DNA of 64,000 nt from Hallerella succinigenes (lineage in GTDB: Bacteria; Fibrobacterota; Fibrobacteria; Fibrobacterales; Fibrobacteraceae), in assembly GCF_002797675.1 (NCBI RefSeq), contig NZ_PGEX01000001.1, positions 2,480,001-2,544,000 of the forward strand, given 5' to 3'. Below the pieces are notes generated by a model. That model was given only the letters and a program-made list of their open reading frames with translations, ran no database searches and was not told the DNA's origin. A program made the translations under genes and the position numbers. Shown here piece by piece: positions 15,744-60,616 of this stretch. The first letter of the stretch is position 1; each line of letters opens with the position of its first letter.

Positions 15744-17327
15744 TTACCCTTCCACAACCTTCCATTCGCCGATGGTGCGCTTCTCCTGGTCGAACGTAAC
15801 ACCAATCTTGAATAACTTTTTCGGCGAGCCGTCCTTGGCCATCGTGACGGAATATGGAATCAGGTAGCCCTTGTCGTCGATTTGTTTTAACGCATCATCC
15901 ACAGTCGCGGAAGAGTCAAGCTTGAACTCGAAAACGTAAACAGCATCGGCAGTTTCCACGACGGCATCGGCGCGGCCCGCGGCACTGCATTCCTCGGTAC
16001 GCACGACGTATGGCGTACACAGCTTGAAAATCAGGAACAGCACCGTCTTGTAGTGGTTTTCGTCCTTGCGTTCCGCATTGTACGGGATGCCGCTCATGAA
16101 CACGCGGATGTGAGTCATCGCGTCATCAATTTTACCTTTCCGCAGCGCCTTCGTGAAACGGAGCATGAACATGTCGTTGTCAACAACGTCGTCCATCGCG
16201 TAATAAGGCATCAGCGCCTTCAGAAAGCCGAGACGCACTTCTTCGTTCGGGAAGCCAATCGTGTAAGCGAAACCATCAAAATTCTTGATTGTCAAGTACC
16301 CGCTCTGGTAAAGCATCGGGATGGGGTTCTTGGCAGTCTCCGTCGGGGCGTCGAACATGTCAAGAGTCGCCTCGAAACCGGTATCGAAAGGCGTCGGGTC
16401 CACCTTGTACTTGCGCATGAGCCTGGTCAGAATCGTCGGCGTTCCCGTGGAAAACCAGTAGTTGGCAAGTTCTCCATCACTTAGCGAATTGATAAGGCTG
16501 AACGGATTGAACACGTCCGGCGAATTCTTGCTGAAGTGGTAGCCGTCATACTGGCGCGTTAGCGCCTCGCAGGCACCGTCGTAAGTCATGCCGTTCTTGT
16601 CGGCGAGGGCCTGGATCTCGGGCTGCATCTGGGTCAGCACTTCTTCCTTCGTGATACCGCAGATGGCCGCATAGTCATCGTTCATCGTGATGACCTTCAA
16701 ATTGTTGAGCTCGCTGAAAATCGAGAGCTGGCTGAACTTGCTGATGCCCGTGAGGAACACGAAGCGGAGGATGCCGCCCAAATCCTTGAGCGGGCTGAAA
16801 AGCTTGCGCATCTCGTTCTTGAGCGTGAGCTGGAGTTCCGGATTTTCCATGGAATCCAGCAGCGGGGCGTCGTATTCATCGACAAGCACCACAGGGGGAG
16901 TATTCGTAGCATTGTAGGCCGCCTGGAGAATATTGCCGAATCGGACACCCCATTCAAACTTCGCCATATTCTTGATGCCCAGCAGTTCTTCGAATGCGGC
17001 CATCATATTGTCGAGGGAAATTTGCAGGGATTCCAATGTATCAAACTTGTTCCCCGCGAAACTCAGCTTGAACACCGGGTACTTTTTCCACTCGGTCTCG
17101 AGTGTCTCCATCGCGAGGCCAGTGAACAAGTCCTTGCGGCCTTCAAAATAGTATTGCAGCGTGCTGACCAGCAGCGATTTCCCGAAACGGCGCGGACGGG
17201 ACAAAAAGAAATACCTGTCCGCTTTGACCAATTTATAGATCAAGTCGGTTTTGTCAACGTAATACTTGTCGTCTTCGCGAATCACCGCGAAATCCTGCAC
17301 GCCGATGGGGAATCTTTTTAACGCCAT
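15744..17327 (-). CDS. AAA-ATPase_like / PDDEXK_9 nuclease-family protein, copy 1
   Basis: About 527 residues from ATG 17327, matching the family start (LPIGIQDF-like). Walker A-like SRPRRFGKS at 43-51, a DEYDAPL Walker B-type motif near 160, and a C-terminal PD-(D/E)XK domain with GRADAVV...VYVFEFKLD (the E-x-K pair). Such AAA-ATPase_like (PF09820) plus PDDEXK_9 (PF08011) proteins are common accessory genes in Bacteroidetes and Fibrobacter; no activity is established. A paralog at 28667-30253 is identical over long blocks but differs sharply in others. Divergently placed from a LEPR-like ORF at 17433. Confidence 0.88.
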   Translation of the reverse strand: MALKRFPIGVQDFAVIREDDKYYVDKTDLIYKLVKADRYFFLSRPRRFGKSLLVSTLQYYFEGRKDLFTGLAMETLETEWKKYPVFKLSFAGNKFDTLESLQISLDNMMAAFEELLGIKNMAKFEWGVRFGNILQAAYNATNTPPVVLVDEYDAPLLDSMENPELQLTLKNEMRKLFSPLKDLGGILRFVFLTGISKFSQLSIFSELNNLKVITMNDDYAAICGITKEEVLTQMQPEIQALADKNGMTYDGACEALTRQYDGYHFSKNSPDVFNPFSLINSLSDGELANYWFSTGTPTILTRLMRKYKVDPTPFDTGFEATLDMFDAPTETAKNPIPMLYQSGYLTIKNFDGFAYTIGFPNEEVRLGFLKALMPYYAMDDVVDNDMFMLRFTKALRKGKIDDAMTHIRVFMSGIPYNAERKDENHYKTVLFLIFKLCTPYVVRTEECSAAGRADAVVETADAVYVFEFKLDSSATVDDALKQIDDKGYLIPYSVTMAKDGSPKKLFKIGVTFDQEKRTIGEWKVVEG

Positions 17328-17432
17328 GGCAACAATATACATTTTTTCGGCAGGGCGGGCATTACTCCCCGATGGGGGTGCCGTAGGCAGGCTGGGATTG
17401 TGCTATATTTCGGGGATAGCGAGGTACCGCCG

Positions 17433-28666: not shown

Positions 28667-30253
28667 TTACCCTTCCACAACCTTCCATTCGCCGATGGTG
28701 CGCTTTTCCTGGTCGAACGTAACACCAATCTTGAATAACTTCTTCGGGTTGCCGTCTTTGGCCATCGTGACGGAATATGGAATCAGGTAGCCCTTGTCGT
28801 CGATTTGCTTCAGCGCGTCGTCGACGGTGGCCGACTTGTCCAGCTTGAACTCGAATACATAAACGGCGCCGGCGGTTTCCACTACGGCGTCGGCACGGCC
28901 TGCGGCACTGCGTTCCTCGGTACGCACGACGTATGGCGTACACAGTTTGAACGTAAGGAAGAAGATTGTCTTGTAATGGGCTTCGTCCTGGCGCTCCGTG
29001 TCGTAGGGGATGCCGCTCATGAACGCCTTCATGAGGGTGAGAGCCTGTTCGATGTCGCAGTCATCAAGCGCATCGACAAAACGTAACAGGAACGAGTCGT
29101 TTTGAACAACATCGTCCATTGCATAATAGGGCATCAGGGCCTTCAAAAACCCGAGGCGGACTTCGTCGTTCGGGAATCCCAGCACAAAACGACTTCCCGG
29201 TTTGGAAGATTTTATCGTCAGGTAACCGCTCTGGTACAGCATCGGGATAGGGTTCTTGGCAGTCTCCGTCGGTGCGTCGAACATGTCAAGAGTTGCCTCG
29301 AAACCGGTATCGAAAGGCGTCGGGTCCACCTTGTACTTGCGCATGAGCCTGGTCAGAATCGTCGGCGTTCCCGTGGAAAACCAGTAGTTGGCAAGTTCTC
29401 CATCACTTAGCGAATTGATAAGGCTGAACGGATTGAACACGTCCGGCGAGTTCTTGCTGAAGTGGTAGCCGTCGTACTGGCGCGTTAGCGCCTCGCATGC
29501 ACCGTCATAGGTCAAGCCGTTCTTGTCTGCGAGGGCCTGGATCTCGGGCTGCATCTGGGTCAGCACTTCTTCCTTCGTAATTCCGCAGATGGCCGCGTAG
29601 TCATCGTTCATCGTGATGACCTTCAAATTGTTGAGCTCGCTGAAAATCGAGAGCTGGCTGAACTTGCTGATGCCCGTGAGGAACACGAAGCGGAGGATGC
29701 CGCCCAAATCCTTGAGCGGGCTGAACAGCTTGCGCATCTCGTTCTTGAGCGTGAGCTGGAGTTCCGGATTTTCCATGGAATCCAGCAGCGGGGCGTCGTA
29801 TTCGTCGACAAGCACTACAGGGGGCATGCCTGTGCTTGCATGAGCAGCCTTGATAAGCAACTCGAAACGCACACCCCAAGCCGACTTGTCGGACGGTACA
29901 AGCCCATACTGGCGTTCCCATTCGCCAAGCTTCAAATTGAGCGTATCTGCCAGGTCCTCTTCGGTAATGAACTTGTTCCCCGCGAAACTCAACTTGAACA
30001 CCGGGTACTTTTTCCACTCGGTCTCGAGTTTCTCCATCGCGAGGCCAGTGAACAAGTCCTTGCGCCCTTCAAAATAGTATTGCAGCGTGCTGACCAGCAG
30101 CGATTTCCCGAAACGGCGCGGACGGGACAAAAAGAAATACCTGTCCGCTTTGACCAATTTATAGATCAAGTCGGTTTTGTCAACGTAATACTTGCCGTCT
30201 TCGCGAATCACCGCGAAATCCTGCACACCGATGGGAAATCTCTTTAACGCCAT
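28667..30253 (-). CDS. AAA-ATPase_like / PDDEXK_9 nuclease-family protein, copy 2
   Basis: About 528 residues from ATG 30253. Same architecture as copy 1 (15744-17327): SRPRRFGKS, DEYDAPLLDSMENPELQL, and the C-terminal GRADAVV...VFEFKLD nuclease site. Differences are confined to blocks: roughly residues 78-122, a loop near 335-345 and a region near 375-415; the rest is identical or nearly so at protein and DNA level. This patchwork suggests swapping of specificity modules or gene conversion. Also divergent from a LEPR-like ORF. Confidence 0.88.
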   Translation of the reverse strand: MALKRFPIGVQDFAVIREDGKYYVDKTDLIYKLVKADRYFFLSRPRRFGKSLLVSTLQYYFEGRKDLFTGLAMEKLETEWKKYPVFKLSFAGNKFITEEDLADTLNLKLGEWERQYGLVPSDKSAWGVRFELLIKAAHASTGMPPVVLVDEYDAPLLDSMENPELQLTLKNEMRKLFSPLKDLGGILRFVFLTGISKFSQLSIFSELNNLKVITMNDDYAAICGITKEEVLTQMQPEIQALADKNGLTYDGACEALTRQYDGYHFSKNSPDVFNPFSLINSLSDGELANYWFSTGTPTILTRLMRKYKVDPTPFDTGFEATLDMFDAPTETAKNPIPMLYQSGYLTIKSSKPGSRFVLGFPNDEVRLGFLKALMPYYAMDDVVQNDSFLLRFVDALDDCDIEQALTLMKAFMSGIPYDTERQDEAHYKTIFFLTFKLCTPYVVRTEERSAAGRADAVVETAGAVYVFEFKLDKSATVDDALKQIDDKGYLIPYSVTMAKDGNPKKLFKIGVTFDQEKRTIGEWKVVEG

Positions 30254-30354
30254 GGTAACAAAATACAATTTTTTCGGCGGGCATTACTCCCCGATGGGGG
30301 TGCCGTAGGCTGGTTGGGATTGTGCTATATTTCGGAGATAGCGAGGTACCGCCA

Positions 30355-43043: not shown

Positions 43044-44612
43044 TTAATTCACCTCCGCTTCAGCAAGAATCTTCTTACACTTTTCCATTTCCTTATCGTC
43101 CTTGACACCAGTGATTTTCAAGCAATACTCCTTAATATCATTGCCCAATTTTCCCCACACATACATTAGACCTTCGGAATCTATCTTGAACACAACTTCC
43201 ACCCTAGTACCGGCGGGCCATTTTTTTGTTAACGGAAGTAGCCCGTCGTCAAGACACTCTGCGCAATCTTGATCGATTATTTTTTCGGTTTCGTTGGACT
43301 CCCATACATCAACCCTTACAGCAGGTTGATTATCGTATACCGTACAAAAAACGCCCCTTCCCTCTGTTGGCAAAGGCGTATTAGCCATAATAAGGTTTTC
43401 TACATTATGGGGAATAATACCTACCCCATAAGACTTACTGGTAACGTTGACAATGGTCGTACTGCACTTGACCATATCGGGACAATCGTCCGTCTCGCCA
43501 TTTTCGAAAGCCTCGATGGCATCTTCGTAGCTCTTGTTCATGGCGAATATGGCCGCACCTTTGGCGACACATTCATCGGGGTCCGTCAAGCGGGCATCGC
43601 AGTTCAAGCGCTTGTCAACAGCGGCCTTCACCTGCGGCATTCGAGACGAACCTCCAACAAGGAGGACCTGATCAAAAGTTTCAACCCCCTTTTTCTTGGA
43701 ATCCTCTATGGTACTTTCGACATAGCTTAACGTCTGTTCCAACAGACCTTCCGTCAGTTCATCGAACTTTTCACGGGTCAACGCTATTCGGGCGGACTTT
43801 CCTTCATATTGGAAATTGACCATCGCCCGTTCCTTGGCGCTCAAACTCTTCTTAGCTTTTTCCGCCTGCAAAAAAAGAGTATTCTTCAAGTGAACATCCG
43901 AATCAAGGCTATATTCAGTCCCGTTAGCTTTATTGAATTCATCCAGCAAGAATTGAGATACCGCCAAGTCCCAATCAGCACCGCCCAAGTGGTGGTCGCC
44001 GCCGGTCACCACGACTTGAATTTTTCCACGGGTTATCTTAATGACAGATACATCGAACGTTCCGCCACCGAGATCGTACACAAGCACCGTCTGCGTCTTG
44101 TCGGTCTTGACTCCGTACGAAATCGCCGCAGCGACAGGCTCGTTGATAATGGCAAGGACATTCAAGCCGGCGGCAATGCCCGCCTGTTTCGTCTGCATGC
44201 GTTCCTTGGTTCCAAAATATGCGGGGCAGGTGATGACAACGTCATTTATGGGTTCAAGCCCTTCGCTTTCGCGGACGCAGTTGGCGTCCTTGACGACCTT
44301 CTTGAGGATAAAGGCTGAAATTTCCGTTGGGTCGTAATGATACGGGAATCGATTATTCAACTTGTCATAACTAGCATCAACGCCAATTTCACGTTTGACA
44401 AAGCAGACCGTCTTCTCGGGTTCCACTTCCAACTGATTCTTTGCCTCTTCCCCAACGATAGCCGTTTTCTCGTCTTCAAAATACACAACTGAAGGCGTCG
44501 TTGCCGCGCCCTCAAAATTGCGCAAAACAACAGCCTGCTCCTGCCCGTCAATCTGGGCCACGCAAGAATAGGTAGTTCCGAGATCTATCCCGAATACATT
44601 TTTTACATTCAT
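43044..44612 (-). CDS. Hsp70-family chaperone, copy 2 of tandem pair
   Basis: 522 residues. Complete nucleotide-binding domain: GIDLGTTYSCVAQID at 9-23, VVITCPAYFG near 129, VYDLGGGTFDVSVI near 183, LLVGGSSRMPQVK near 319. After about residue 395 a substrate-binding beta domain with divergent sequence (GIIPHNVENLIMANTPLP) and then a short tail; the 100-residue alpha lid of DnaK is absent (DnaK is about 640). The cytosolic location follows from no signal. Its first ~390 residues are nearly identical to copy 1 (44622-46190). Operon partner of a membrane GrpE. Confidence 0.9.
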   Translation of the reverse strand: MNVKNVFGIDLGTTYSCVAQIDGQEQAVVLRNFEGAATTPSVVYFEDEKTAIVGEEAKNQLEVEPEKTVCFVKREIGVDASYDKLNNRFPYHYDPTEISAFILKKVVKDANCVRESEGLEPINDVVITCPAYFGTKERMQTKQAGIAAGLNVLAIINEPVAAAISYGVKTDKTQTVLVYDLGGGTFDVSVIKITRGKIQVVVTGGDHHLGGADWDLAVSQFLLDEFNKANGTEYSLDSDVHLKNTLFLQAEKAKKSLSAKERAMVNFQYEGKSARIALTREKFDELTEGLLEQTLSYVESTIEDSKKKGVETFDQVLLVGGSSRMPQVKAAVDKRLNCDARLTDPDECVAKGAAIFAMNKSYEDAIEAFENGETDDCPDMVKCSTTIVNVTSKSYGVGIIPHNVENLIMANTPLPTEGRGVFCTVYDNQPAVRVDVWESNETEKIIDQDCAECLDDGLLPLTKKWPAGTRVEVVFKIDSEGLMYVWGKLGNDIKEYCLKITGVKDDKEMEKCKKILAEAEVN

Positions 44613-44621
44613 GTATTATTC

Positions 44622-46190
44622 CTAATTTACTTCCGCTTCAGCAAGAATCTTCTTACTCGTTTCCATTTCCTTATCGTCCTTGACACCCGTGATTTTCAAA
44701 TTATATTCCTTGACATCATCACCAATCTTGCCCCACACGGACATCAAACCTTCATCGTCAATTCGGACAATCATTTCAATAGGGGTTCCCTTGGGCCAAT
44801 TCCTATTAATCGTCAGCATACCGTCATCAAGGCATTCCGCAAGAGCACGTTTAATTCTCTTTTCTGTTTCATTAGATTCCCACACATCAATAGGAACAGC
44901 AGGTTGGTTGTCCACAGCTGTTACATAATGCCCCCGGCCTTCCGTCGGCAAGGTCGTATTCGCCATAATCAGGTTATCTACTTCATCCTCATTGACACTA
45001 GTTCCATAAGTCTTGCTGGTAACGTTGACAATGGTCGTACTGCACTTGACCATATCGGGACAATCGTCCGTCTCGCCATTTTCAAAGGCCTCGATAGCAT
45101 CTTCGTAGCTCTTGTTCATGGCGAATATGGCAGCCCCCTTGGCGACACATTCATCGGGGTCCGTCAAACGAGCATCGCAGTTCAAACGCTTGTCAACAGC
45201 GGCCTTCACCTGCGGCATTCGAGACGAACCTCCAACAAGGAGGACCTGATCAAAAGTTTCAACCCCCTTTTTCTTGGAATCCTCTATGGTACTTTCGACA
45301 TAGCTTAACGTCTGTTCCAACAGACCTTCCGTCAGTTCATCGAACTTTTCACGGGTCAACGCTATTCGGGCGGACTTTCCTTCATATTGGAAATTGACCA
45401 TCGCACGTTCCTTGGCGCTCAAACTCTTCTTGGCCTTTTCCGCCTGCAAGAGAAGAGTATTCTTCAAGTGAACGTCAGAATCAAGGCTATATTCAGTTCC
45501 GTTTACATTGTTAAACTCATCAAGTAAAAATTGAGATACCGCCAAGTCCCAATCAGCACCGCCCAAGTGGTGGTCGCCGCCGGTCACCACGACTTGAATT
45601 TTTCCACGGGTTATCTTAATGACAGATACATCGAACGTTCCGCCACCGAGATCGTACACAAGCACCGTCTGCGTCTTGTCGGTCTTGACTCCGTACGAAA
45701 TCGCCGCAGCGACAGGCTCGTTGATAATGGCAAGGACATTCAAGCCGGCGGCAATGCCCGCCTGTTTCGTCTGCATGCGTTCCTTGGTTCCAAAATATGC
45801 GGGGCAGGTGATGACAACGTCATTTATGGGTTCAAGCCCTTCGCTTTCGCGGACGCAGTTGGCGTCCTTGACGACCTTCTTGAGGATAAAGGCTGAAATT
45901 TCCGTTGGGTCGTAATGATACGGGAATCGATTATTCAACTTGTCATAACTAGCATCAACGCCAATTTCACGTTTGACAAAGCAGACCGTCTTCTCGGGTT
46001 CCACTTCCAACTGATTCTTTGCCTCTTCCCCAACGATAGCCGTTTTCTCGTCTTCAAAATACACAACTGAAGGCGTCGTTGCCGCGCCCTCAAAGTTGCG
46101 CATGACAACAGCCTGTTCCTGTCTGTCAATCTGGGCAACGCATGAATAGGTGGTTCCGAGATCTATTCCGAATACATTTTTAGAATCCAT
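44622..46190 (-). CDS. Hsp70-family chaperone, copy 1 of tandem pair
   Basis: 522 residues, same length as its neighbour. Nucleotide-binding motifs as in copy 2. Only a few residues differ before ~392; after that the two diverge strongly (TYGTSVNEDEVDNLIMANTTLP here), while the last 25 residues converge again. Tandem duplication with gene conversion over the ATPase part and divergence in the client-binding part is the simplest reading. Begins 2 bp after the GrpE-like gene. Confidence 0.9.
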   Translation of the reverse strand: MDSKNVFGIDLGTTYSCVAQIDRQEQAVVMRNFEGAATTPSVVYFEDEKTAIVGEEAKNQLEVEPEKTVCFVKREIGVDASYDKLNNRFPYHYDPTEISAFILKKVVKDANCVRESEGLEPINDVVITCPAYFGTKERMQTKQAGIAAGLNVLAIINEPVAAAISYGVKTDKTQTVLVYDLGGGTFDVSVIKITRGKIQVVVTGGDHHLGGADWDLAVSQFLLDEFNNVNGTEYSLDSDVHLKNTLLLQAEKAKKSLSAKERAMVNFQYEGKSARIALTREKFDELTEGLLEQTLSYVESTIEDSKKKGVETFDQVLLVGGSSRMPQVKAAVDKRLNCDARLTDPDECVAKGAAIFAMNKSYEDAIEAFENGETDDCPDMVKCSTTIVNVTSKTYGTSVNEDEVDNLIMANTTLPTEGRGHYVTAVDNQPAVPIDVWESNETEKRIKRALAECLDDGMLTINRNWPKGTPIEMIVRIDDEGLMSVWGKIGDDVKEYNLKITGVKDDKEMETSKKILAEAEVN

Positions 46191-50142: not shown

Positions 50143-51510
50143 ATGATCAATCTTCACGAGGTTGAAGAAACCAACGCCATGATCGAAAAGGAAAACTTGG
50201 ATGTCCGCACCATCACGATGGGACTCTGCCTTCTCGACTGCATCGATTCGAACGTGGATAAGCTTTGCCAAAATATCCACGATAAAATTTACCGTTCTGC
50301 CAAGGACCTTGTGAAAACCGGAAATGAAATCGCGAAGGACTTTGGCATTCCGGTGGTGAACAAGAGAATCTCCGTGACGCCGATTTCCCTCGTCGGTGCA
50401 TCCGCTTGCAAATCTTCCGCAGACTTTGTGAAAATTGCGAAGATGTTGGACTCCGTTGCAAAAGAGGTCGGAGTGAATTTTCTGGGCGGTTACACGGCCC
50501 TCGTCAGCAAGGGAATGACCCCTGCCGATGAACTCTTGATCCGCTCCATTCCAGAAGCCTTGACCGAAACCGATGTGCTCTGTTCCTCGGTCAACTTAGG
50601 CTCGACCAAAACAGGTATCGACATGGATGCTGTCCGTTTGATGGGAACGATCATCAAGGATACCGCAGAACTTTCCGAAAAGAAGGGCGTTTTGAACGGC
50701 GACTCGAAACTCGTCGTCTTTTGCAACGCGCCGGACGATAACCCGTTTATGGCCGGCGCCTTCCACGGTGTCACGGAAGGCGATGTCGTTTTGAACGTGG
50801 GCGTTTCCGGTCCGGGCGTCGTCAAAAAGGCCTTGGAATCGGTCCGCGGCACGGACTTTGAAACCCTTTCCGAAACAATCAAAAAGACCGCATTCAAGGT
50901 GACCCGGGTCGGTCAGCTTGTGGCGAAAGAAGCTTCGAAACGCCTTGGCTATCCGTTTGGCATTGTGGACCTTTCGCTTGCGCCGACTCCGGCGATTGGC
51001 GATTCCGTTGCCGACATCCTTTGCGAAATGGGCCTTGAATATGCTGGCGCTCCGGGAACGACTGCCGCCCTCGCCATGCTGAACGACCAGGTGAAGAAGG
51101 GCGGCCTCATGGCTTCTTCTTACGTGGGAGGCCTTTCGGGCGCGTTCATTCCGGTTTCGGAAGACCAGGGAATGATCCACGCCGCAGAAGCGGGCGCGCT
51201 GACACTCGAAAAACTCGAAGCGATGACCTGTGTTTGCTCCGTGGGCCTTGACATGATCGCCATTCCGGGCGATACCAAGGACACGACCATTGCAGGCATT
51301 ATCGCAGATGAAATGGCGATCGGGATGATCAACCAAAAAACGACCGCCTGCCGCTTGATTCCATGCCCGGGGAAAAAGGTGGGTGACAAGGTGGAATTCG
51401 GTGGCCTTCTGGGCTTTGCTCCGGTGATGGCGGTGAATGCTTATTCCTGTGATGCCTTTGTGAATCGAGGCGGAAGAATTCCGGCTCCGGTCCACTCTTT
51501 TAAGAACTAA
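50143..51510 (+). CDS. UPF0210 / PFL-family protein
   Basis: 455 residues, typical length. Contains [15 protein letters not shown] near 21, [11 protein letters not shown] near 114, [22 protein letters not shown] near 272 and [17 protein letters not shown] near 413, all typical of the UPF0210 (DUF711) family, which shares a fold with glycyl-radical-related PFL enzymes but lacks a known substrate. Always encoded beside an ACT-domain protein, as here, suggesting allosteric control. Confidence 0.9.
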
Positions 51511-51542
51511 AGCGCAGTAAGAAGTAGGGCGAAAAGCAAAGC

Positions 51543-52523
51543 ATGAAATGGACGACTCCGGTAGAAATCCCGAAATCCGATATCCGCATTGACTGGAAGT
51601 CGAACGTCGCCTTTATCGGATCTTGCTTTGCAGAAAATATTTCGCATAAATTCACCGATCTCTGCTTCCGTACAGCGGTCAATCCCTTTGGAATCGTTTA
51701 CAATCCGCTTTCGGTGGCGAACATGCTGGAACGGATTGCCAACAAAAAGCTCTATACCGCGGACGAAATTTTCTTTGACGGCGAAAACTACCACTGCTGG
51801 GATTTTCACGGAAGCTTCTCTTCCAAAGATTCGAACCTGTGCCTACAACAAATGAATGGCGCCGTGGAGTCTGCACACGCTTTTCTGCAAAAGGCAGACG
51901 TCGTCTTCATGACGCTCGGCTCGGCTTTCTGCTACTTCCTTCAGGAATCCGGAACGGTCGTTTCAAATTGCCATCGTCAAAATGCAAACCTGTTTCGCCG
52001 GGAACTCGTTTCGGTAGAACGCATCGTGTTTGCGTTAGAAAGTGCCGTTCAAAGCTTGCAAACATTGAATCCGCAGGTGCGCATCGTTTTGACCGTTTCA
52101 CCGCTGCGCCATTTCAAGGACGGGGCTCATGGAAATCAGCTTTCCAAGGCGACCCTCTTGCTCGGCGCCAATTCTGTCGCAAACACTTTCAAAAATGTGG
52201 AATATTTCCCGAGCTATGAAATTGCCATGGACGAGCTTCGGGATTACAGGTTTTACGCTGCTGACATGATTCATCTGTCTTCGACCGCGGAAGATTACAT
52301 CTTTGAAAAATGCGGAGAGTCTTATTTCAGCGAGGAAACGCGGCGAAATCTTTCCCGAGTAGAAAGCTTTTTAAAGCTTTCGAACCATCGAATTTTCGAT
52401 GCGGATTCTTTCAAGGTCAAAACCTTTGCTCAAAACGCTCTCTTGCAGGCAAAAGATTTGCAGGCGCAGATCCCTGGCTTGGACTTAAGTGCAGAAATCC
52501 GCCGTTTTGAATCTTTTATTTAG
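51543..52523 (+). CDS. GSCFA-domain protein
   Basis: 326 residues with the name-giving motif FIGSCFAENI near residues 24-33, then NPFGIVYNPLSV and FMTLGSAFCY, and VLTVSPLRHFKDG near 180. GSCFA proteins belong to the SGNH-like hydrolase clan and are predicted esterases without known substrate. Possibly co-transcribed with UPF0210 (32 bp gap). Confidence 0.85.
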   Translation: MKWTTPVEIPKSDIRIDWKSNVAFIGSCFAENISHKFTDLCFRTAVNPFGIVYNPLSVANMLERIANKKLYTADEIFFDGENYHCWDFHGSFSSKDSNLCLQQMNGAVESAHAFLQKADVVFMTLGSAFCYFLQESGTVVSNCHRQNANLFRRELVSVERIVFALESAVQSLQTLNPQVRIVLTVSPLRHFKDGAHGNQLSKATLLLGANSVANTFKNVEYFPSYEIAMDELRDYRFYAADMIHLSSTAEDYIFEKCGESYFSEETRRNLSRVESFLKLSNHRIFDADSFKVKTFAQNALLQAKDLQAQIPGLDLSAEIRRFESFI

Positions 52524-52560
52524 GATTTAGCTTTCTGGATCCGTTTTTCTTTGGAAAATG

Positions 52561-52585
52561 AAAAATCCTCTCTGTAAAGAGAGGA
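52561..52585 (-). terminator. Terminator of the small lipoprotein gene
   Basis: An 8-bp perfect stem (TCCTCTCT / AGAGAGGA, four-base loop) followed by TTTTT on the minus strand, about 30 bp after the stop of the gene at 52616. It also converges on the GSCFA gene. Confidence 0.75.
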
Positions 52586-52615
52586 CTTGAGGAGGGAAGC
52601 TGTAACGAATACGGC

Positions 52616-52873
52616 TTAAAGAAGAGATACTTGGGTGACCGCAGCAACGCCAAGGACTTCTTCGCCAGAAATTTCATCAATAATAATCGGGCAAAGGTTT
52701 TCATCTGCCACAATGGTTCCATCGGTGCAGTTGAAGGTTTCAGTCGACATCGCCGGTGCAGCAACGACAGGAGCCTGATCAGGCATTGCTGCGACATTCG
52801 GAGTGTGAGTGCCTGCGCAAGCGGTGAAGAAGGTGGCGCCAAAGAGAAGAGCTGCAAGAGAAATTTTTTTCAT
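52616..52873 (-). CDS. Small lipoprotein
   Basis: 85 residues: lipobox FFTAC near residue 19, an Ala/Pro-rich middle, then a short region with two Cys (TFNCTDGTIVADENLCP) that may form a disulfide. No family recognised. Own terminator downstream, so it is a single-gene unit. Confidence 0.7.
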   Translation of the reverse strand: MKKISLAALLFGATFFTACAGTHTPNVAAMPDQAPVVAAPAMSTETFNCTDGTIVADENLCPIIIDEISGEEVLGVAAVTQVSLL

Positions 52874-53067
52874 GGATTACGGTTCCTTTTTCCTTTCTTT
52901 CTTAAAATCAATTCCGTTTTTCAGAAATCCAAGAAAAAAATGTGAAACGGACTTCAATTTATAGTACAACTTGGAATATACCCATCAAAAATAGGGGCTT
53001 TTTGCCTCGAAATCGTGCATAAAATAGCGTATGGAAAAAGAAATGATTTCTATATTGTCCGCCCGTC

Positions 53068-54201
53068 ATGAGGCTTTGGTGGAAAATTGTTGGACTTCTG
53101 TGTTCAGTCGCTTCGTTTGCGTCTGCAGATGCGCTGGATAATTTGCAGGGCGTGCCGCTTGTGGACACGCTTCTTGTGGATTCGTCAAAGATTGTTGCCC
53201 GCCAAAAAGCGGATGACTTCCAACGTTTTTCTCTAGTCCCGGTTTTAGGCTATACCGAAGAGACGGAAGTCCTGTACGGAGCCATGGTTCTTTTTTTTAT
53301 CAAACCCGATGAAAAAGGCGGCAAGGTTCCGGAAATCGGCTTGACCGCTTACGGATCTTCCCGTGGACAATGGCAGTTTGTGCTCGAACCTTTTTTTTAC
53401 TTGTATCATGACCTGATCAGCGGCTGGTTCGCGCTCAAGTATCAGGATTGGATCACCAGTTATTATGGTTCGGGGAACGATCCGGATATCAACACGTTCA
53501 CGAATTACGACAAGGAAAAGTTCTCTCTCTGCTCTAAATTTGAATCGAAGGCTTTTGTTCCCGATTGGTTCAAGTACGGGATGGAAGTCCACATAGAGCA
53601 TGCCAAGATCCAGTTCCGCGAATCCGATATGGACTTTCCCGATCCGCAGTCGGGATGGCGAAATGGACTTGGATACCTGTTCGGCATCGATACACGCGAC
53701 AATACGAACTGGACTGCCCATGGCTTTTTGGCGGAGTGGAAACAGATTTTTTATGCGGAAGCCTTTGGCGATTACTCCTTTGACATAGAAAGCCTGGATT
53801 TAAGGGGTTACACTCCGATTCCTTTACAGGCGACTGCCGCTTTCGGTCTATTGTGGCAACGCGCCGAAGGAAATGTCCCGTTTGATATGCTCGCAGGGCC
53901 CGATGGCGTTCAGAGGTTCCGCGGAGTGGAAAGCCTTTACTTTAACGACAATCAGTCATTGATTTTGCAGTCGGAAATCCGTAAATATTTCGGTTGGAGA
54001 CTCGGGGGCCATGTGTTTTTTGAAGGTGGAAAGGTCGGCGGTTACTTTAGCGAATTGATGCGCAACGACTGGCATAGGGCTGTGGGTTTTGGCGCTTTGC
54101 TCGGATTGAACTTGAAGGAGCGCTTGTTCGCCCGCGCCGATGTCTCCTGGGTAGATTTTGACCACGTCGGGCTTTCTTTTTATGTAAGACAGGCGTTTTA
54201 A
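53068..54201 (+). CDS. BamA/TamA-like (D15) outer-membrane beta-barrel
   Basis: 377 residues. Signal peptide to about residue 20, a short lead, then beta-barrel strands: alternating aromatic/hydrophobic segments, and the D15-like MLAGPDGVQRFRGVESLYFNDNQSLILQSEIRKYF near 270-305 and a C-terminal ending with Phe (SFYVRQAF), as required for outer-membrane insertion. No POTRA domains, so it is a reduced surface-antigen D15-type barrel rather than BamA. It leads a cluster of acyl-chain enzymes (14 bp gap), which might point to export or assembly of a lipid-linked product. Confidence 0.72.
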   Translation: MRLWWKIVGLLCSVASFASADALDNLQGVPLVDTLLVDSSKIVARQKADDFQRFSLVPVLGYTEETEVLYGAMVLFFIKPDEKGGKVPEIGLTAYGSSRGQWQFVLEPFFYLYHDLISGWFALKYQDWITSYYGSGNDPDINTFTNYDKEKFSLCSKFESKAFVPDWFKYGMEVHIEHAKIQFRESDMDFPDPQSGWRNGLGYLFGIDTRDNTNWTAHGFLAEWKQIFYAEAFGDYSFDIESLDLRGYTPIPLQATAAFGLLWQRAEGNVPFDMLAGPDGVQRFRGVESLYFNDNQSLILQSEIRKYFGWRLGGHVFFEGGKVGGYFSELMRNDWHRAVGFGALLGLNLKERLFARADVSWVDFDHVGLSFYVRQAF

Positions 54202-54215
54202 AGGGAAAATCTGTT

Positions 54216-54629
54216 ATGGAAGTGTGTAAGATTCAGTATACAAGCCATATTGATGTCCGGTATGCGGAAACCGATCAGATGGGAGTGGTCCACCATTCCG
54301 TGTATGCAGTTTGGTTTGAACAGGCTCGAACGGAATTCTTTAAAACGGTCGGATCGACCTATGCGGATGTGGAAAAACAGGGCTTTCTTTGCCCTGTCTT
54401 GGAACTGAACGTGCGTTACCGTTACCCGACTCATTACGGCGATACGGTGGATGTGAAAACGACCCTGATGCGCAAGGGCAAGCTTCATTTTAAGTTCCAT
54501 TACTGCGCTTATGTCAAGGGAACGCTCTGTGCGGAAGGGTATTCTTTGCACTGTTTTTTGAAGGATGGCAAACCGACTGCGGAATTGCCTCCGCAGGTGG
54601 ATCTCTTCTTTCCTCCGGAAAAGAGCTGA
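54216..54629 (+). CDS. Acyl-CoA/ACP thioesterase (4HBT hotdog)
   Basis: 137 residues with the YbgC-type motif VRYAETDQMGVVHHSVYAVWFEQAR near 11-36, in which the Asp of ETDQMG is catalytic. It probably hydrolyses acyl thioesters; inside an ACP-KS operon it could release or edit the finished chain. Confidence 0.88.
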   Translation: MEVCKIQYTSHIDVRYAETDQMGVVHHSVYAVWFEQARTEFFKTVGSTYADVEKQGFLCPVLELNVRYRYPTHYGDTVDVKTTLMRKGKLHFKFHYCAYVKGTLCAEGYSLHCFLKDGKPTAELPPQVDLFFPPEKS

Positions 54630-54742
54630 TTTGACTAGTTTTTATCGTTAAATTCTCGCTTCCTATCGTTTAAAAGTCGGTTTGGATGTGAAAACGATGT
54701 AATTTTTTTCTATTCTTTCAAAAATTCTAAAATGAGGTAAAA

Positions 54743-54988
54743 ATGAACAACGAAGAAGTGAAAAGTAAGCTCAAGGCATTCTTTATGTCGGATCTCGGCG
54801 TCGATGGCGACGTTCTGAACTACGACACCCCGCTTTTTGGTGAAGAAATTGGGCTTGATTCCGTTGACTCTTTGGAAATCATTTCCTTTGTCGACAGCAA
54901 CTTTGGCGTTTCGATGACCGGTGCTGGAAAGGAACCGTTCCAGAGCATTGATACGATCGCTGATTTCATCGAAAAGCACCAAGCTTAA
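54743..54988 (+). CDS. Acyl carrier protein
   Basis: 81 residues, acidic, with the phosphopantetheine Ser in GLDSVDSLEII (near residue 39). A GAGGT site precedes ATG 54743. As a separate ACP directly before a ketosynthase fusion it is presumably specific to this pathway rather than to general fatty-acid synthesis. A 113-bp gap upstream may hold a second promoter. Confidence 0.9.
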   Translation: MNNEEVKSKLKAFFMSDLGVDGDVLNYDTPLFGEEIGLDSVDSLEIISFVDSNFGVSMTGAGKEPFQSIDTIADFIEKHQA

Positions 54989-55028
54989 TCGCTTTGTGCT
55001 TTTTTTACTGGTTTTTGGATAGGATATC

Positions 55029-57425
55029 ATGATTTCGAACGATAGTCGCTGTGTCGTTACCGGCCTTGGCGTGATTTGCGCTGTCGGTAACAATGTTGAA
55101 GAAACTTGGAAGAACGCTCTGAACTCCGTTTCGGGCATTCATCAGACCACTTCTGTGGATACAGACAAGTGTTACGCGAACCTCGCTGCTGAAGTCCATT
55201 GCGATACTTTGGACGCGATCGACGCTCCGGAAGAGAAGGATCGTGTTTCAAAACTTTGCATCAAGGCAGCAAATGAAGCCTTGCAGGATGCAGGTCTTGG
55301 CAACTTTGCCGACGACCAGCGTGTGAGCGTGATTATCGGAAGTTGTGTTGGCGGCGTGATCAGCGTGGAACATTACCACCAGAACGGCAAAAACGCAAAT
55401 GATATCCCCAAAATGCCGATTGCGGCCATTGCGTCCCAGGTGGCGGAAACCTGTGGCGCAGGTGGCATTGTAACGAACGTGGCAAATGCTTGTGCAGCCG
55501 GTACGATTTCCATCGCTCTCGCTTGCGACTTGATTCGCGCGGGCAAGGCAGATGTCGTCGTGGCTGGCGGTGCGGATTCTTTTGCCGCAGTTCCATATTC
55601 CGGATTCCTTTCCTTGCACGCTTTGGATGAAAACGGATGTTCTCCGTTCAATCATTGCAATGGCATTACGCTCGGCGAAGGTGCGGGCATTGTAATCGTG
55701 GAATCTTATGCACACGCTCAAAAGCGCGGTGCAAAAACCTATTGCGAAATTCTCGGTTCGGGTATCACGAGTGACGCTCACCATATCACGGCTCCGCGTG
55801 AAGATGCTCTTTGCTTGACGGAAGCGATGAATCGCGCTGTTAAGAATTCCGGTATTCAGAAGTCCGATATCGGCTATGTGAATGCACATGGAACGGGTAC
55901 GGGCAAGAACGACAATGCGGAAATTACGGCTTTCACCAAGTTCTTTGGTGAAGAAAACCCGACGGTCAGCGTGAGCTCGACCAAGGTGATGACGGGCCAC
56001 TGCCTCGGTGCAGCGGGTGCGATCGAAGCCGTGTTCAGCATCAAGGCCTTGACGACCGATACCGTGCTTCCGACTCTGCATTATTCCGCAGAAGATTCCG
56101 AAGCGTTGAAGGCAAAGGTCGGCAAAATGGACTTTGTACAGAACGTGCCGCATGCGAAGGCTTTGAAGTGCGTGATGAGCAATAACGTCGCGTTCGGCGG
56201 TACGAATGCGAGCATCGTGTTCTCCAAGGAAGCGGCGAATGTCTCTTACCAGACGGCGAAGGATCAGAAAATCGCGGTGACGGGTCTTGGCATTGTATGT
56301 CCTCTCGGCAACAGCAAGGCCGCTTTCGTTTCGGCAATCGAAAAGGATGTGAAGCCGGAAAGCGCTTCGATCCATTCGACCATTTCCTTGGAAGATTACA
56401 AGGAACTCGGCATCAAGATGGCGTTCTACCGCAAGCTTGACAATTTGGGTCAACTGCAGACGGTTTCGGGCATGCGTGCCCTCCAGGACGCAAACTTTAA
56501 GGTTTCCGAAGAAAATGCGAAGGAAATCGGCATTATCGTCGGAACCTCGGAAGGTGGGCTCGGTGCCACTTATGATTTTGAAGAACTGATCACGAATCTC
56601 GGCAATGCTCAGGGCAGTGCCTTCAAGTTCCCGCACACGGTTTACAATGCCGCTGGCGGTTACCTGTCGATTTGTTCGGGTATCAAAGGCTACGGCGTAA
56701 CGATTACGACAGGCCCTGTTTCTGGCCTCGACAGCATCGGTTACTCGATGAACGTGATCCACGATGGTCAGGAAAAGGCGATGATGGCAACGGGTACGGA
56801 TGAAAACCTCCCGATTATCACGGAATTCGCCCAGAAGTTGAATTTTGCCGCCGACCAGGTCGTTGCACCGTATTCGGATTCCGAAGGCTGCGTCTTGGGC
56901 GATGGCAGCGTGTCCATTCTTTTAGAAACCGAAGAACAGGCAAAGGCTCGCGATGCCAAGATCTACTGCTACGCTCTCGGCTACGGCAACGGCCGTAAGA
57001 ACGTGAAGTTCGGCAAGATCGAAGGCTCGGGAGAAGCTTTGGACAATGCAATCCAGGAAGCCTTGAAGGACTCGGGCCTTTCGATCGATGATATCGATGC
57101 CGTCTGTGGCTTTGCGGATGGCTTTAAGAAGGTGGATAACATCGAAAAGGCATCTTTGATCCGCGTATTTGGTGACAAGATTGCTTCGAAGCCGGTCTTT
57201 GAAGTGAAGGAACGCGTCGGTGAAGGCCGTGCTGCTTCGGCAACGCTCGCCGCTGCGGAAGCGGCTCTTCTCCTCAGTTCGGAACTGAAGAGTGAAAAAG
57301 CTTACTTCATTGCCCAGGACGGTTCCGTGTCGACGAAGATGGTGGAATCCAAGGACTTGAAGAAGATTCTTGTGATTTCGTTTGCTGCGGGTGGCTCTTA
57401 CAGCGCAGTCGTTTTTGGTAAGTAA
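55029..57425 (+). CDS. Fused ketosynthase - chain-length-factor-like protein
   Basis: 798 residues, two thiolase-fold KAS domains in one chain. The first (about 1-400) has Cys155 (VANACAAG), His287 (VNAHGTGTGKND) and His324 (TGHCLGAAG), so it is active. The second (about 414-798) starts KIAVTGLGIVCPLG but has TGPVSG (561-566) where Cys is needed, and the other catalytic sites are replaced too (GFADGFKKVDN; RVGEGRAASA). Such pairs of active KS with a dead chain-length factor build polyketide or aryl-polyene chains, but are normally two separate proteins. The fusion fixes a 1:1 ratio. Confidence 0.88.
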   Translation: MISNDSRCVVTGLGVICAVGNNVEETWKNALNSVSGIHQTTSVDTDKCYANLAAEVHCDTLDAIDAPEEKDRVSKLCIKAANEALQDAGLGNFADDQRVSVIIGSCVGGVISVEHYHQNGKNANDIPKMPIAAIASQVAETCGAGGIVTNVANACAAGTISIALACDLIRAGKADVVVAGGADSFAAVPYSGFLSLHALDENGCSPFNHCNGITLGEGAGIVIVESYAHAQKRGAKTYCEILGSGITSDAHHITAPREDALCLTEAMNRAVKNSGIQKSDIGYVNAHGTGTGKNDNAEITAFTKFFGEENPTVSVSSTKVMTGHCLGAAGAIEAVFSIKALTTDTVLPTLHYSAEDSEALKAKVGKMDFVQNVPHAKALKCVMSNNVAFGGTNASIVFSKEAANVSYQTAKDQKIAVTGLGIVCPLGNSKAAFVSAIEKDVKPESASIHSTISLEDYKELGIKMAFYRKLDNLGQLQTVSGMRALQDANFKVSEENAKEIGIIVGTSEGGLGATYDFEELITNLGNAQGSAFKFPHTVYNAAGGYLSICSGIKGYGVTITTGPVSGLDSIGYSMNVIHDGQEKAMMATGTDENLPIITEFAQKLNFAADQVVAPYSDSEGCVLGDGSVSILLETEEQAKARDAKIYCYALGYGNGRKNVKFGKIEGSGEALDNAIQEALKDSGLSIDDIDAVCGFADGFKKVDNIEKASLIRVFGDKIASKPVFEVKERVGEGRAASATLAAAEAALLLSSELKSEKAYFIAQDGSVSTKMVESKDLKKILVISFAAGGSYSAVVFGK

Positions 57426-57442
57426 GGTTTAGAGGAGACAGG

Positions 57443-58174
57443 ATGAAGGTTGCACTGGTTACAGGCGCTTCGAAGGGGATCGGCAAGGCTTGCGCCCTTC
57501 GCTTGGCTAAAGACGGCTACACGGTCGTTGTAAACTATTCGAGTTCTGACGCAGCTGCAAAGGAAACCCTTTCGCAGATTCAGGCGGCTGGCAGCGAAGG
57601 CATGATTTACAAGGCCGACGTTTCGAAGCTCGACCAGGTGAAGCTCATGATTCGTGAAGTCATAAAGGCTTACGGTCGTATTGATGTTCTGGTGAACAAT
57701 GCTGGCATTGTCCGCGACGAATATCTTCTGATGATTAGTCCGGATACTCTTGACAAGTGCTTTGAATTGAACGTGAAGGGTTACATCTACTGTGCTCAGC
57801 AGGTCGCCCTAAAAATGTTTAAGCAGAAGTCAGGCGTGATCATCAATATGAGCTCTGTGAGTTCGAAGTTTGCTCTCGCCGGTCAAAGCGTTTACAGCGC
57901 TACCAAGGGTGCGGTGAATTCTTTGACCCAGACTCTCGCCAAGGAACTTGGCGCTTATGGCATTCGCGTGAATGCGGTGGCTCCGGGCTTTATCGCAACC
58001 GAAATGATTGAAGCGATTCCGGAAGAAAAGCGCAAGGCTTATGTGGAGCAGATTCCGCTCAAGCGTTTCGGTACGGCAGATGAAGTGGCGAACATGGTTT
58101 CCGCTCTTGTTTCGGATCAGTTTGCTTATGTAACGGGTCAGGTGTTCGTTCTCGACGGAGGCCTTTCCCTGTGA
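57443..58174 (+). CDS. 3-oxoacyl-ACP reductase (FabG-type SDR)
   Basis: 243 residues. NAD(P)-binding TGASKGIGKA near 7-16, NNAGIVRD near 87, and the catalytic SSVSSKF...YSATKG (Ser, Tyr, Lys) near 138-157. It reduces the beta-keto chain made by the fused ketosynthase. Stop overlaps the dehydratase start (GTGA). Confidence 0.92.
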   Translation: MKVALVTGASKGIGKACALRLAKDGYTVVVNYSSSDAAAKETLSQIQAAGSEGMIYKADVSKLDQVKLMIREVIKAYGRIDVLVNNAGIVRDEYLLMISPDTLDKCFELNVKGYIYCAQQVALKMFKQKSGVIINMSSVSSKFALAGQSVYSATKGAVNSLTQTLAKELGAYGIRVNAVAPGFIATEMIEAIPEEKRKAYVEQIPLKRFGTADEVANMVSALVSDQFAYVTGQVFVLDGGLSL

Positions 58175-58620
58175 GCATGAACATTTACGAAATCAGCCAG
58201 AAGATCGCTCAGCGCCCGCCGTTCCAGATGGTGGAAAAGGTAACGGAACTCGTTTTGAACGAATCCGCGACCGGCATCAAGAATGTGAGCGTGAATGAAC
58301 CGTATTTTATGGGCCACTTTCCGGGAACCCCGATTATGCCGGGCGTTCTGATTGTGGAAAGCTGTGCTCAGCTATGCTCGCTCGTGATCGAAAAGAAGCC
58401 GGAAGACTTGGATGACAAGCTTTATGTGCTTTTGAAGATCGACGGCTTTAAGTTTGTAAAGCCTGTGATTCCGGGCGATCAGCTGGAAATGACCGTGACG
58501 AAGACGAAGGGCGGTGGAGTTCTTGTGGGCTTTAACTGTGTCGTCAAGGTGAACGGTGTGGTACATGCGAAGGGCGATTTGACCTTTACGACGATTCCGA
58601 AAGATTCCTTGGGCAAGTAA
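58171..58620 (+). CDS. 3-hydroxyacyl-ACP dehydratase (FabZ-type)
   Basis: 149 residues from GTG 58171. Active-site His and Glu in YFMGHFPGTPIMPGVLIVES (near 45-64), with typical PPFQMVEKV opening. It dehydrates hydroxyacyl-ACP to the enoyl form. No enoyl reductase is in the operon, so the chain may keep its double bonds. Confidence 0.92.
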   Translation: MSMNIYEISQKIAQRPPFQMVEKVTELVLNESATGIKNVSVNEPYFMGHFPGTPIMPGVLIVESCAQLCSLVIEKKPEDLDDKLYVLLKIDGFKFVKPVIPGDQLEMTVTKTKGGGVLVGFNCVVKVNGVVHAKGDLTFTTIPKDSLGK

Positions 58621-58637
58621 GGCTTTTAAACTGTGTA

Positions 58638-59330
58638 ATGGCTGTGAAATCGATTGTTGAATTCTTTTTGAAGACTGTCGTCCGCTTCATTGAACGGGCG
58701 GGCTGGGCGTATTTTCATATCGCTTACCGTCCGCAGCTTGTTTTTACCGATCCGTCGGTGCAGTCGACAAACTTGAAAACGCCGTCCCTGATTATTGCAA
58801 ACCATACTTCGACGAACGATCCGATTCTTTTGCTCGCTCTGTTCTTTCATAAGAGAAGCATTGTCGTGGCAAAGGATTGGTATGAAATGCCGAAGTTCCA
58901 CTGGATTTTAAAACGTGCGAATGTGGTGCCGTGCGACCGCTTTAACTTGGACACGGAATGGGCATTGAAGGCGAAGAAACAGCTTGAAGCGGGCAATTCG
59001 GTAATTATCTTCCCAGAAGGCAAGTGCCGTGAAGACGGCCTTTTGAACGAATTTAAAACGGGCTTTGCGTTCCTCGCCCGCAGCACGGGCGCTCCGGTGA
59101 TTTCCATTGGACTCGACGGTATTTACAAACGCGGACACAAGACGCGCGTCATCATCGGTAACGCCGAAAAGATTGAACGAGTCAAAGGGATTCCTTCGTC
59201 GGTGCACCTTGCGGAACGCAGCGAATACTTTAGACAAAAGGTTTGGGCATTAAAGCTGCAAGCGCTGAACAAACCGTTCACAGAACTTCCGACTGCAGAA
59301 AATACACCTGCAGAAAAGGTGGCGAATTGA
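58638..59330 (+). CDS. Lysophospholipid acyltransferase-family protein (PlsC-type)
   Basis: 230 residues. The HX4D motif is NHTSTND near 54-60, and IFPEGKCREDG near 128 corresponds to the FPEGTRS box with Lys-Cys replacing Thr-Arg. It transfers acyl chains to a lipid-type acceptor. One start at ATG 58638; its stop overlaps the TTG start of the patatin gene. Confidence 0.88.
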   Translation: MAVKSIVEFFLKTVVRFIERAGWAYFHIAYRPQLVFTDPSVQSTNLKTPSLIIANHTSTNDPILLLALFFHKRSIVVAKDWYEMPKFHWILKRANVVPCDRFNLDTEWALKAKKQLEAGNSVIIFPEGKCREDGLLNEFKTGFAFLARSTGAPVISIGLDGIYKRGHKTRVIIGNAEKIERVKGIPSSVHLAERSEYFRQKVWALKLQALNKPFTELPTAENTPAEKVAN

Positions 59331-60178
59331 AAATCGGCCTGGTACTAGAAGGCGGTTCCCGCCAGACGATCTTTTCGGCAGGTGTCCTCGATACGATGCT
59401 TGATGAGAATATCGAGTTTCCGTATATCGGAGGCGTTTCGGCTGGCGGTCATGCGGCGATGAACTATGTGACGAAGCAGAAAGGACGCTTGCGCTACATT
59501 ATTATGCCGACCAAACTTCAACGCGGCGAAAAAAAGGCACATCGCATTTTAGATGGAATCCGCAAGGAATCCCGAGCGTTGCATTACGGAGCCGCTTACG
59601 GTCATATTCCGTTTGACTTTGATACTTTCTTTGCTTCTCCGGTGAAATGCGAATTTACACTGACCTGCTGTGAAACGGGCCGTCCCGTTTACATGTCGGA
59701 ACCTAGCGATCCAAAGCGTTTACTCGACATTGTGAACGCGAGCTGTTCGGTGCCGATGCTTTTTCCGGTGGCGCAGATCGGCGCTAAGCATTATGTGGAC
59801 GGTTGTGTGACCGATCCGATTCCGTACCGCCGGGCATTTGAAATGGGCTGTGACAAGGTCGTCGCCATTTCTACACATTATCCGGGGGAAGCGGTTTCGG
59901 ATTTTCGCAAGTACAGCGCTGTTTTGAATCCGATGTTCAAACACAAGTATTTGGATCTTTTCCGCGCTTTGATGGTACGTTATCGCCGTTACCAGCGGAT
60001 GTTCGAAGACCTGGAACGCTTGGAAAAAGAAGGCAAGGTCTTTTTGATGCGTCCGGAGGTCGATCTTTGCGATCTCTTTGAAACGGATCTCGATAAATTG
60101 AATGCTTCTTACTTCCACGGTTGCGATTATGCGCGCCGGAAGATGAACGCTTTGAAGGCTTTTTTGAAAGCGGAATAA
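59327..60178 (+). CDS. Patatin-like phospholipase (acyl hydrolase)
   Basis: 283 residues from TTG 59327 (AAAGGT upstream), where the family begins (MKIGLVLEGGSRQ with the Gly-rich oxyanion loop). Nucleophile GVSAGG (Ser38) and the Asp of YVDGCVTDP near 161 complete the dyad. Coupled to the acyltransferase by a TTGA overlap, it may recycle or release the transferred acyl chains. Confidence 0.88.
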   Translation: MKIGLVLEGGSRQTIFSAGVLDTMLDENIEFPYIGGVSAGGHAAMNYVTKQKGRLRYIIMPTKLQRGEKKAHRILDGIRKESRALHYGAAYGHIPFDFDTFFASPVKCEFTLTCCETGRPVYMSEPSDPKRLLDIVNASCSVPMLFPVAQIGAKHYVDGCVTDPIPYRRAFEMGCDKVVAISTHYPGEAVSDFRKYSAVLNPMFKHKYLDLFRALMVRYRRYQRMFEDLERLEKEGKVFLMRPEVDLCDLFETDLDKLNASYFHGCDYARRKMNALKAFLKAE

Positions 60179-60181
60179 TGA

Positions 60182-60616
60182 ATGAAATTTTTGATTCAGC
60201 GTGTGACAAGTGCCAAGGTGGAAATCGACGGAGAAACGGTCGGTCAAATCGGTAAAGGCTACATGGTGCTGATAGGTGTCGGGGAAACGGATACGAAGGA
60301 AATCGCCGACCGTTTAGTCCGTAAAATGCTTTCTCTGCGCATCTTTGCCGATGATCATGGCAAGACGAATCTTTCGATCCAGGATGTGAAGGGGGAACTT
60401 TTGCTCGTTTCGCAATTCACGCTGTATGCAGACTGCCACAAGGGAAATCGCCCGACTTTTAACGGGGCAGGAAACCCGACGCTTGCGAACGAACTTTACG
60501 AGTATATCGTTTGCGAATGCAAAAAGTCTGTTTCGGTGGTGCAAACCGGTCGTTTTGGCGCCGATATGCAGGTAAGTCTTGTAAATGATGGACCATTTAC
60601 CATTTTACTCGACTAA
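60182..60616 (+). CDS. dtd: D-aminoacyl-tRNA deacylase Dtd
   Basis: 144 residues with [33 protein letters not shown] and the terminal [19 protein letters not shown], the known active-site Gly-cis-Pro and SQ motifs. It hydrolyses D-amino acids from tRNA. A 3-bp gap places this unrelated housekeeping gene at the end of the acyl operon. Confidence 0.95.

Follow-up and report, generated by a model that had tools for sequence, protein, structure and literature searches.

The stretch of DNA analysed here, called the window, is 64,000 nucleotides long and comes from Hallerella succinigenes (contig NZ_PGEX01000001.1, positions 2,480,001 to 2,544,000, forward strand). At 55029..57425 (+) it carries a single unbroken open reading frame for a 798 aa protein (P0001), in which the Pfam domains ketoacyl-synt and Ketoacyl-synt_C are each found twice. 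The first half (residues 1-405; 55029..56243, +) is predicted from its residues and its likeness to FabF to be an active ketosynthase (KS), having the motifs NACAAG (C155), NAHGTGT (H287), and SSTKVMTGH (K319 and H324). The second half (residues 406-798, 393 aa; 56244..57425, +) is a Cys-less KS fold of the chain-length factor (CLF) kind. When it is aligned to the first, TTGPVSGL places P563 where the Cys would be, and the His motifs are replaced by VCGFADG and FEVKERVGEGR, both without His, while the position aligned to the Lys is still K. The preliminary description of this locus, in which a KS and a CLF were joined in one polypeptide with the full catalytic set in the first half, Pro563 in place of the Cys, and both His motifs replaced in the second, is borne out on each of these points.

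The nearest sequence relative of the KS half is FabF, with 347 bits to the curated FabF equivalog TIGR03150 and 39% identity to FabF of B. subtilis. The whole fusion scores 483.9 bits against TIGR03150, below its cut-off of 493.75 (halves 347 and 150). It does pass the NCBIfam FabF subfamily PRK07314, with 460 bits against a cut-off of 387, but only because the scores of the two halves are summed, these being 334 and 139 alone. This is an annotation artefact by which fusions of this type are likely to be hidden; the records of the relatives name them just 'beta-ketoacyl-ACP synthase family protein'.

The AlphaFold model of the fusion as a single chain has a pTM of 0.92 and a mean pLDDT of 87.8. 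Its top PDB match is 6RIW, the KS-CLF didomain of PfaC (E 1e-51, TMq 0.78), which is the sole match among those listed that spans both halves, with single FabF chains ranking next. A heterodimer-like fold, as had been anticipated for this protein, is matched in so far as a high-confidence model resembles 6RIW on both halves, but the placement of the halves relative to each other is only roughly supported, since the match has 18% identity and an rmsd of 7.6 A over 916 columns.

Genes on the same strand surround the fusion. Directly upstream is an 81 aa acyl carrier protein (ACP) with the phosphopantetheine motif GLDSVDSLE (54743..54988, +), preceded by an adjacent 4HBT-type acyl thioesterase (54216..54629, +) that is present in part of the Fibrobacter operons. 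An outer-membrane-barrel-like protein without a Pfam family (53068..54201, +) is likewise found in part of the Fibrobacter operons only, and its membership is uncertain. Downstream are a ketoreductase (KR) identified by domain search as a FabG-type SDR (57443..58174, +), a 149 aa FabZ-type dehydratase (DH) with a GTG start that overlaps the KR stop by 4 bases (58171..58620, +), and a PlsC-like acyltransferase, a candidate for acyl transfer to lipid, that is usual in Fibrobacter and Treponema operons (58638..59330, +). A patatin-like lipase follows (59243..60178, +); its TTG start probably lies too far upstream, given the 88-base overlap. There is no recognised enoyl reductase, FabD, or Acc gene in the operon of the window. 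In the literature on KS-CLF fusions and on Fibrobacter polyketides and lipids, covered mostly outside subscription journals, no description of this operon was found.

Elsewhere in the window, two adjacent and near-identical Hsp70/DnaK-like genes (43044-44612 and 44622-46190, both -) differ mainly near their C-termini. Two AAA-ATPase/nuclease-like proteins of 532-533 aa, closely alike, are encoded at 15744-17342 and 28667-30268 (both -), apparently mobile or duplicated. Several lipoprotein-like genes between 14391 and 31923 are rich in Ser over long stretches and have a C-terminal domain in common, apparently forming a paralogous family.

A search of the phylum found the full-length fusion in 53 of 94 Fibrobacteraceae genomes, at 78-96% identity and with no internal stops, including all six genomes of the genus from which the window comes; so many uninterrupted copies argue against the fusion being a chance event. 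Across 30 aligned copies C155, H287, K319, H324, and P563 are invariant, and the linker has about 12-15 residues, its single indel being one deletion of 2 residues. Among the 12 copies that are identical in length, the median dN/dS is 0.06 (KS half) and 0.09 (CLF half), so both halves are under purifying selection.

Using the CLF half as the query, a genome scan returned 143 relatives. The best 80 of these are from Fibrobacter, Treponema and other spirochaetes, Anaeroplasma/Acholeplasmatales, and Clostridia, many of them with gut or rumen sample labels, and 78 of the 80 are full-length fusions, the remaining two being cut by contig ends. Lachnospira eligens ATCC 27750 has a 61% identical copy on its 627-kb plasmid. 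In the set of 81 fusions formed by the window and these best 80 of the 143, which falls into three broader groups, C155, H287, K319, and H324 are kept at every resolved residue. Position 563 is Pro in 37/37 Fibrobacter and 17/18 Treponema sequences, and in Firmicutes it is mostly Ala followed by Gln. In none of the 81 second halves is there a Cys within 2 residues of this position, so that a catalytic Cys retained by most orthologues, which would have spoken against the preliminary description, is not what is found.

In the tree, made by a quick method and rooted at the midpoint, the KS halves and the CLF halves each form one strongly supported clade with congruent inner order, although the deep order of the CLF halves is unsure on account of long branches. 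Fibrobacter is nested in Treponema, and Treponema in Firmicutes, an order consistent with horizontal acquisition by Fibrobacter. The tandem separate KS and CLF genes of the phylum, and its other KS-CLF fusions, fall into different clades, which suggests that the joining of KS to CLF probably arose more than once; for the same reason, the idea that stop loss in the tandem genes of its own phylum gave rise to the Fibrobacter fusion is rejected.

Several other fusions were seen. Proteins of about 1250 aa that end in KS-CLF are present in other Fibrobacterota (L046, L047, L048, L051, L052, L053, L056, L061, and L062); the only one scanned (L047:4634-8395) has B12-binding and radical SAM domains at its start. 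Directly after these proteins there is often a second KS-CLF fusion of 770 aa (L047:8392-10704), with an ACP, a KR, and FabD, and such loci may be acyl synthase clusters of a radical-SAM kind not described before. Another genus of the Fibrobacteraceae has an 813 aa KS-CLF-like fusion (L049:6517-8958), 31% identical, that adjoins a KR and a DH and has very long branches. Fusions of 809 and 787 aa from plasmids of Priestia megaterium (L185:7998-10427) and Streptomyces (L186:4938-7301) have Cys-less second halves and KR/DH/ACP clusters, and are outside the clade of the window.

Among the relatives that have enough flanking DNA, nearly every one has an ACP, a KR, and a DH next to the fusion, and the order ACP/KS-CLF/KR/DH is kept from Fibrobacter to Clostridia. 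In many Clostridia the operon continues with FabD, AccD, AccA, a flavodoxin-fold reductase, and PlsX, while in Anaeroplasma the reductase, BioY, AccC, AccD, and AccA come after. The operon on the L. eligens megaplasmid reads ACP, KS-CLF, KR, FabZ, FabD, AccD, AccA, reductase, and PlsX, where AccA is present in the plasmid DNA, yet absent from the plasmid gene table. An operon that unites the fusion with FabD, acetyl-CoA carboxylase subunits, and PlsX is present in Clostridia and L. eligens, but not in the window. These neighbourhoods indicate a fatty-acid-type synthase, instead of the polyketide or aryl-polyene pathway in which the fusion was at first placed.

The reductase is a 250 aa protein of the Flavodoxin_2/FMN_red group. 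It adjoins the fusion in most operons outside Fibrobacter and in some Fibrobacter operons; in Fibrobacter it is usually outside the operon, being encoded elsewhere in the genomes tested, as is the copy of the window's own genome (L191:6499-7254, equal to G000:1068498-1069253). With orthologues defined by an E value below 1e-100, the reductase is found in 23/23 tested Fibrobacteraceae genomes that have the fusion and in 0/20 that do not (Fisher P 1e-12), and within one genus in 17/17 and 0/10, respectively (Fisher P 1e-7), these P values treating related genomes as independent. Four invariant Cys have the spacing C-x2-C-x2-C-x7-C, and there is one further invariant Cys; the spacing resembles the compact cluster motif of iron-sulfur flavoproteins. 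In its fold, the modelled reductase (pTM 0.89) is similar to FMN-dependent azoreductases and quinone reductases. From the co-occurrence with the fusion, it is probable that this protein is an enoyl reductase or the electron donor of one. The enoyl-ACP reductases that have been reviewed are of SDR or FabK types, flavodoxin being unmentioned in the text of that review (PMC9260719).

In 12 of 30 genomes of the relatives, matches to PF00109 are to the two halves of the fusion alone (G151, G152, G153, G154, G165, G166, G167, G168, G171, G172, G175, and G177), and a 13th (G174) is ambiguous. A search of 121 genomes from one order, filtered at 90% completeness, added three more (G281, G290, and G293), making at least 15 genomes in which the fusion is the only KS detected. 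As these are drafts, mostly metagenome-assembled, a missed contig could contain a FabF, and the absence of another KS is suggestive, not proof. Neither FabH nor full-length FabK was found in five of these genomes, and FabV was not found in twelve. The resolved SDR matches in five genomes do not have the Yx6K motif of FabI at the expected place, having YxxxK instead, by a partial motif heuristic that left a few rows unresolved. The genome of the window (G000) differs, as it has two FabF-like genes, one of which adjoins FabV, plus an extra KS pair. PF08545 (FabH) has no match in this complete genome, despite the presence of FabF and FabV. In Fibrobacter the fusion would be a second system beside FabF/FabV, and in some gut Clostridia and Anaeroplasma probably no other enzyme elongates fatty acids. 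Since some draft genomes of gut anaerobes have no other chain-building enzyme of this type among those found, the fusion may make the fatty acids of their membranes.

On balance, it seems probable that the protein is a covalent KS-CLF pseudo-heterodimer, acting as the condensing enzyme of a small acyl-chain synthase of discrete proteins, with KR and DH working on the ACP, an unlinked reductase, and a PlsC-like transfer to lipid; this synthase would be additional in Fibrobacter and probably the only elongation system in several Clostridia and Anaeroplasma. An acyl group would be loaded on Cys155 of the KS half, with His287 and His324 serving in the decarboxylation of malonyl-ACP before condensation by the same half. 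The CLF half would carry out no chemistry, but would complete the dimer and shape the tunnel that fixes chain length. Each round would be processed by the KR and the FabZ-type DH on the ACP of the operon, with the unlinked four-Cys flavodoxin-fold protein probably acting as enoyl reductase or as electron donor to one, and the PlsC-like acyltransferase would, judging by the neighbourhood, place the product onto a lipid. We infer the geometry of the dimer, the role of the CLF in chain length, the role of the reductase, the product, and its transfer to lipid. In KS-CLF pairs as described, catalysis belongs to the KS, for which the CLF, itself devoid of catalytic residues, is an obligate partner, and the KS-CLF of actinorhodin does its own priming (PMC12664062). 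Priming may similarly be done by the KS-CLF here, which would explain the missing FabH. The operon would have spread by horizontal transfer between gut Firmicutes, spirochaetes, and Fibrobacter.

A stronger form of this proposal, which can only be tentative, is that in several lineages of gut Clostridia and Anaeroplasma FabF, FabH, and FabI or FabK have been replaced by a mobile fatty acid synthase, in which the sole elongating enzyme is the covalent KS-CLF, primed by itself without FabH, and the enoyl reductase is of a new flavodoxin-fold, possibly iron-sulfur, class.

An unlikely alternative, although one to be taken seriously, is that the operon makes a polyene-type specialised metabolite through a highly reducing type II PKS like those for ishigamide or aryl polyenes, giving a conjugated polyene attached to lipid, to which the flavoprotein would be unrelated. 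In its favour, the window operon has a KR and a DH and neither a recognised enoyl reductase nor FabD or Acc genes; the KS-CLF pairs ApeO-ApeC and Iga11-Iga12 operate with a KR and a DH (PMC8358021), and Fibrobacter already has FabF and FabV elsewhere. Such a metabolite would not account for FabD, AccD, AccA, and PlsX in the operons of the relatives, nor for the at least 15 genomes in which no KS besides the fusion was detected. No aryl ligase, lyase, or MMPL exporter was seen beside the fusion, and no genes for aryl starter activation or an exporter are among those at 50143-60616; together with the full length of the CLF, where ApeC is about half size (PMC8358021), these missing genes remove the fusion from the aryl-polyene family. 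A cluster that does resemble an aryl-polyene locus lies elsewhere in the same genome (L151:9195-12788, about 1,126-1,130 kb of G000), with two KS genes, both with Cys and His, a KR, and a DH beside a 771 aa protein.

It is also conceivable, though doubtful, that the synthase is of the fatty-acid type but is everywhere accessory, making for example odd, branched, or hydroxy acyl chains, and that the genomes with no other KS import most of their acids. Scavenging is common in one such order, where 80 of the 121 genomes have no KS at all, so that these lineages can do without fatty-acid synthesis. The genes for AccA/AccD, FabD, and PlsX in the operons of relatives are nevertheless the supply and exit steps of bulk phospholipid synthesis.

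That the protein is a fragment of a PUFA synthase, or a derivative of PfaC, for long polyunsaturated acids is very improbable. PfaC is also a single-chain KS-CLF and 6RIW is the best fold match, but the two are only 18% identical in sequence, the KS half resembles FabF, the reading frame ends after the CLF, and the DH, KR, and ACP are separate small proteins, the last a single, discrete 81 aa protein in place of the tandem ACPs of PfaA; no PfaA-type megasynthase gene is present in the neighbourhood of the window or in the other neighbourhoods read. Membership of the PfaC family is rejected on architecture. A degenerating duplication of FabF, with the second half as a relic, would agree with the loss of the catalytic Cys and both His but can hardly be entertained, being rejected on selection and conservation, as this half is conserved at full length across several phyla with a dN/dS of about 0.09 and no frame breaks.

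In the usual teaching, KS-CLF pairs belong to polyketide synthesis, and the FabF homodimer to that of fatty acids. This line is blurred by a stand-alone KS-CLF that is found with AccA/AccD, FabD, and PlsX and is the sole KS detected in some genomes. Were the covalent pseudo-heterodimer to act as proposed, a CLF would set membrane chain length in some gut bacteria, FabH would be dispensable in those bacteria, and there may be an enoyl reductase that has so far escaped recognition. Structural and engineering work would also profit from a 1:1 heterodimer fused in this way. What is new is a family of stand-alone KS-CLF didomains with discrete partners, its distribution across phyla of gut anaerobes, the link between this family and a flavodoxin-fold reductase, and the fact that some genomes have no other detected KS.

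A KS and a CLF in one chain is already known from PfaC, and the match to 6RIW means that the covalent arrangement is not unprecedented. Calling such a fusion unusual, as in the preliminary description, was half right, given PfaC and the other fusions elsewhere. PfaC has the same active KS followed by an inactive CLF, but it continues into two DH/isomerase domains and works with the megasynthase PfaA (PMC13291983), whereas the present chain stops after the CLF. The KS-CLF of type II PKSs (actinorhodin 1TQY, ishigamide Iga11-Iga12 6KXD, and AntD-AntE) share with it a KS with the Cys-His-His set, a Cys-less KS fold, and discrete ACP, KR, and DH, but are two polypeptides where the fusion is one, without aromatase or cyclase genes and with AccA, AccD, FabD, and PlsX in the operons of its relatives. 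ApeO-ApeC of the aryl polyenes is likewise a Gram-negative KS-CLF that makes an acyl chain with an ACP, a KR, and a DH, but differs in its shorter CLF and in its aryl starter genes, which the operon of the fusion does not have. FabF of the type II fatty acid synthase is closest to the KS half, and the clostridial operons contain the partners of that synthase; FabF is a single-domain homodimer, whereas the fusion has one active and one dead site per chain.
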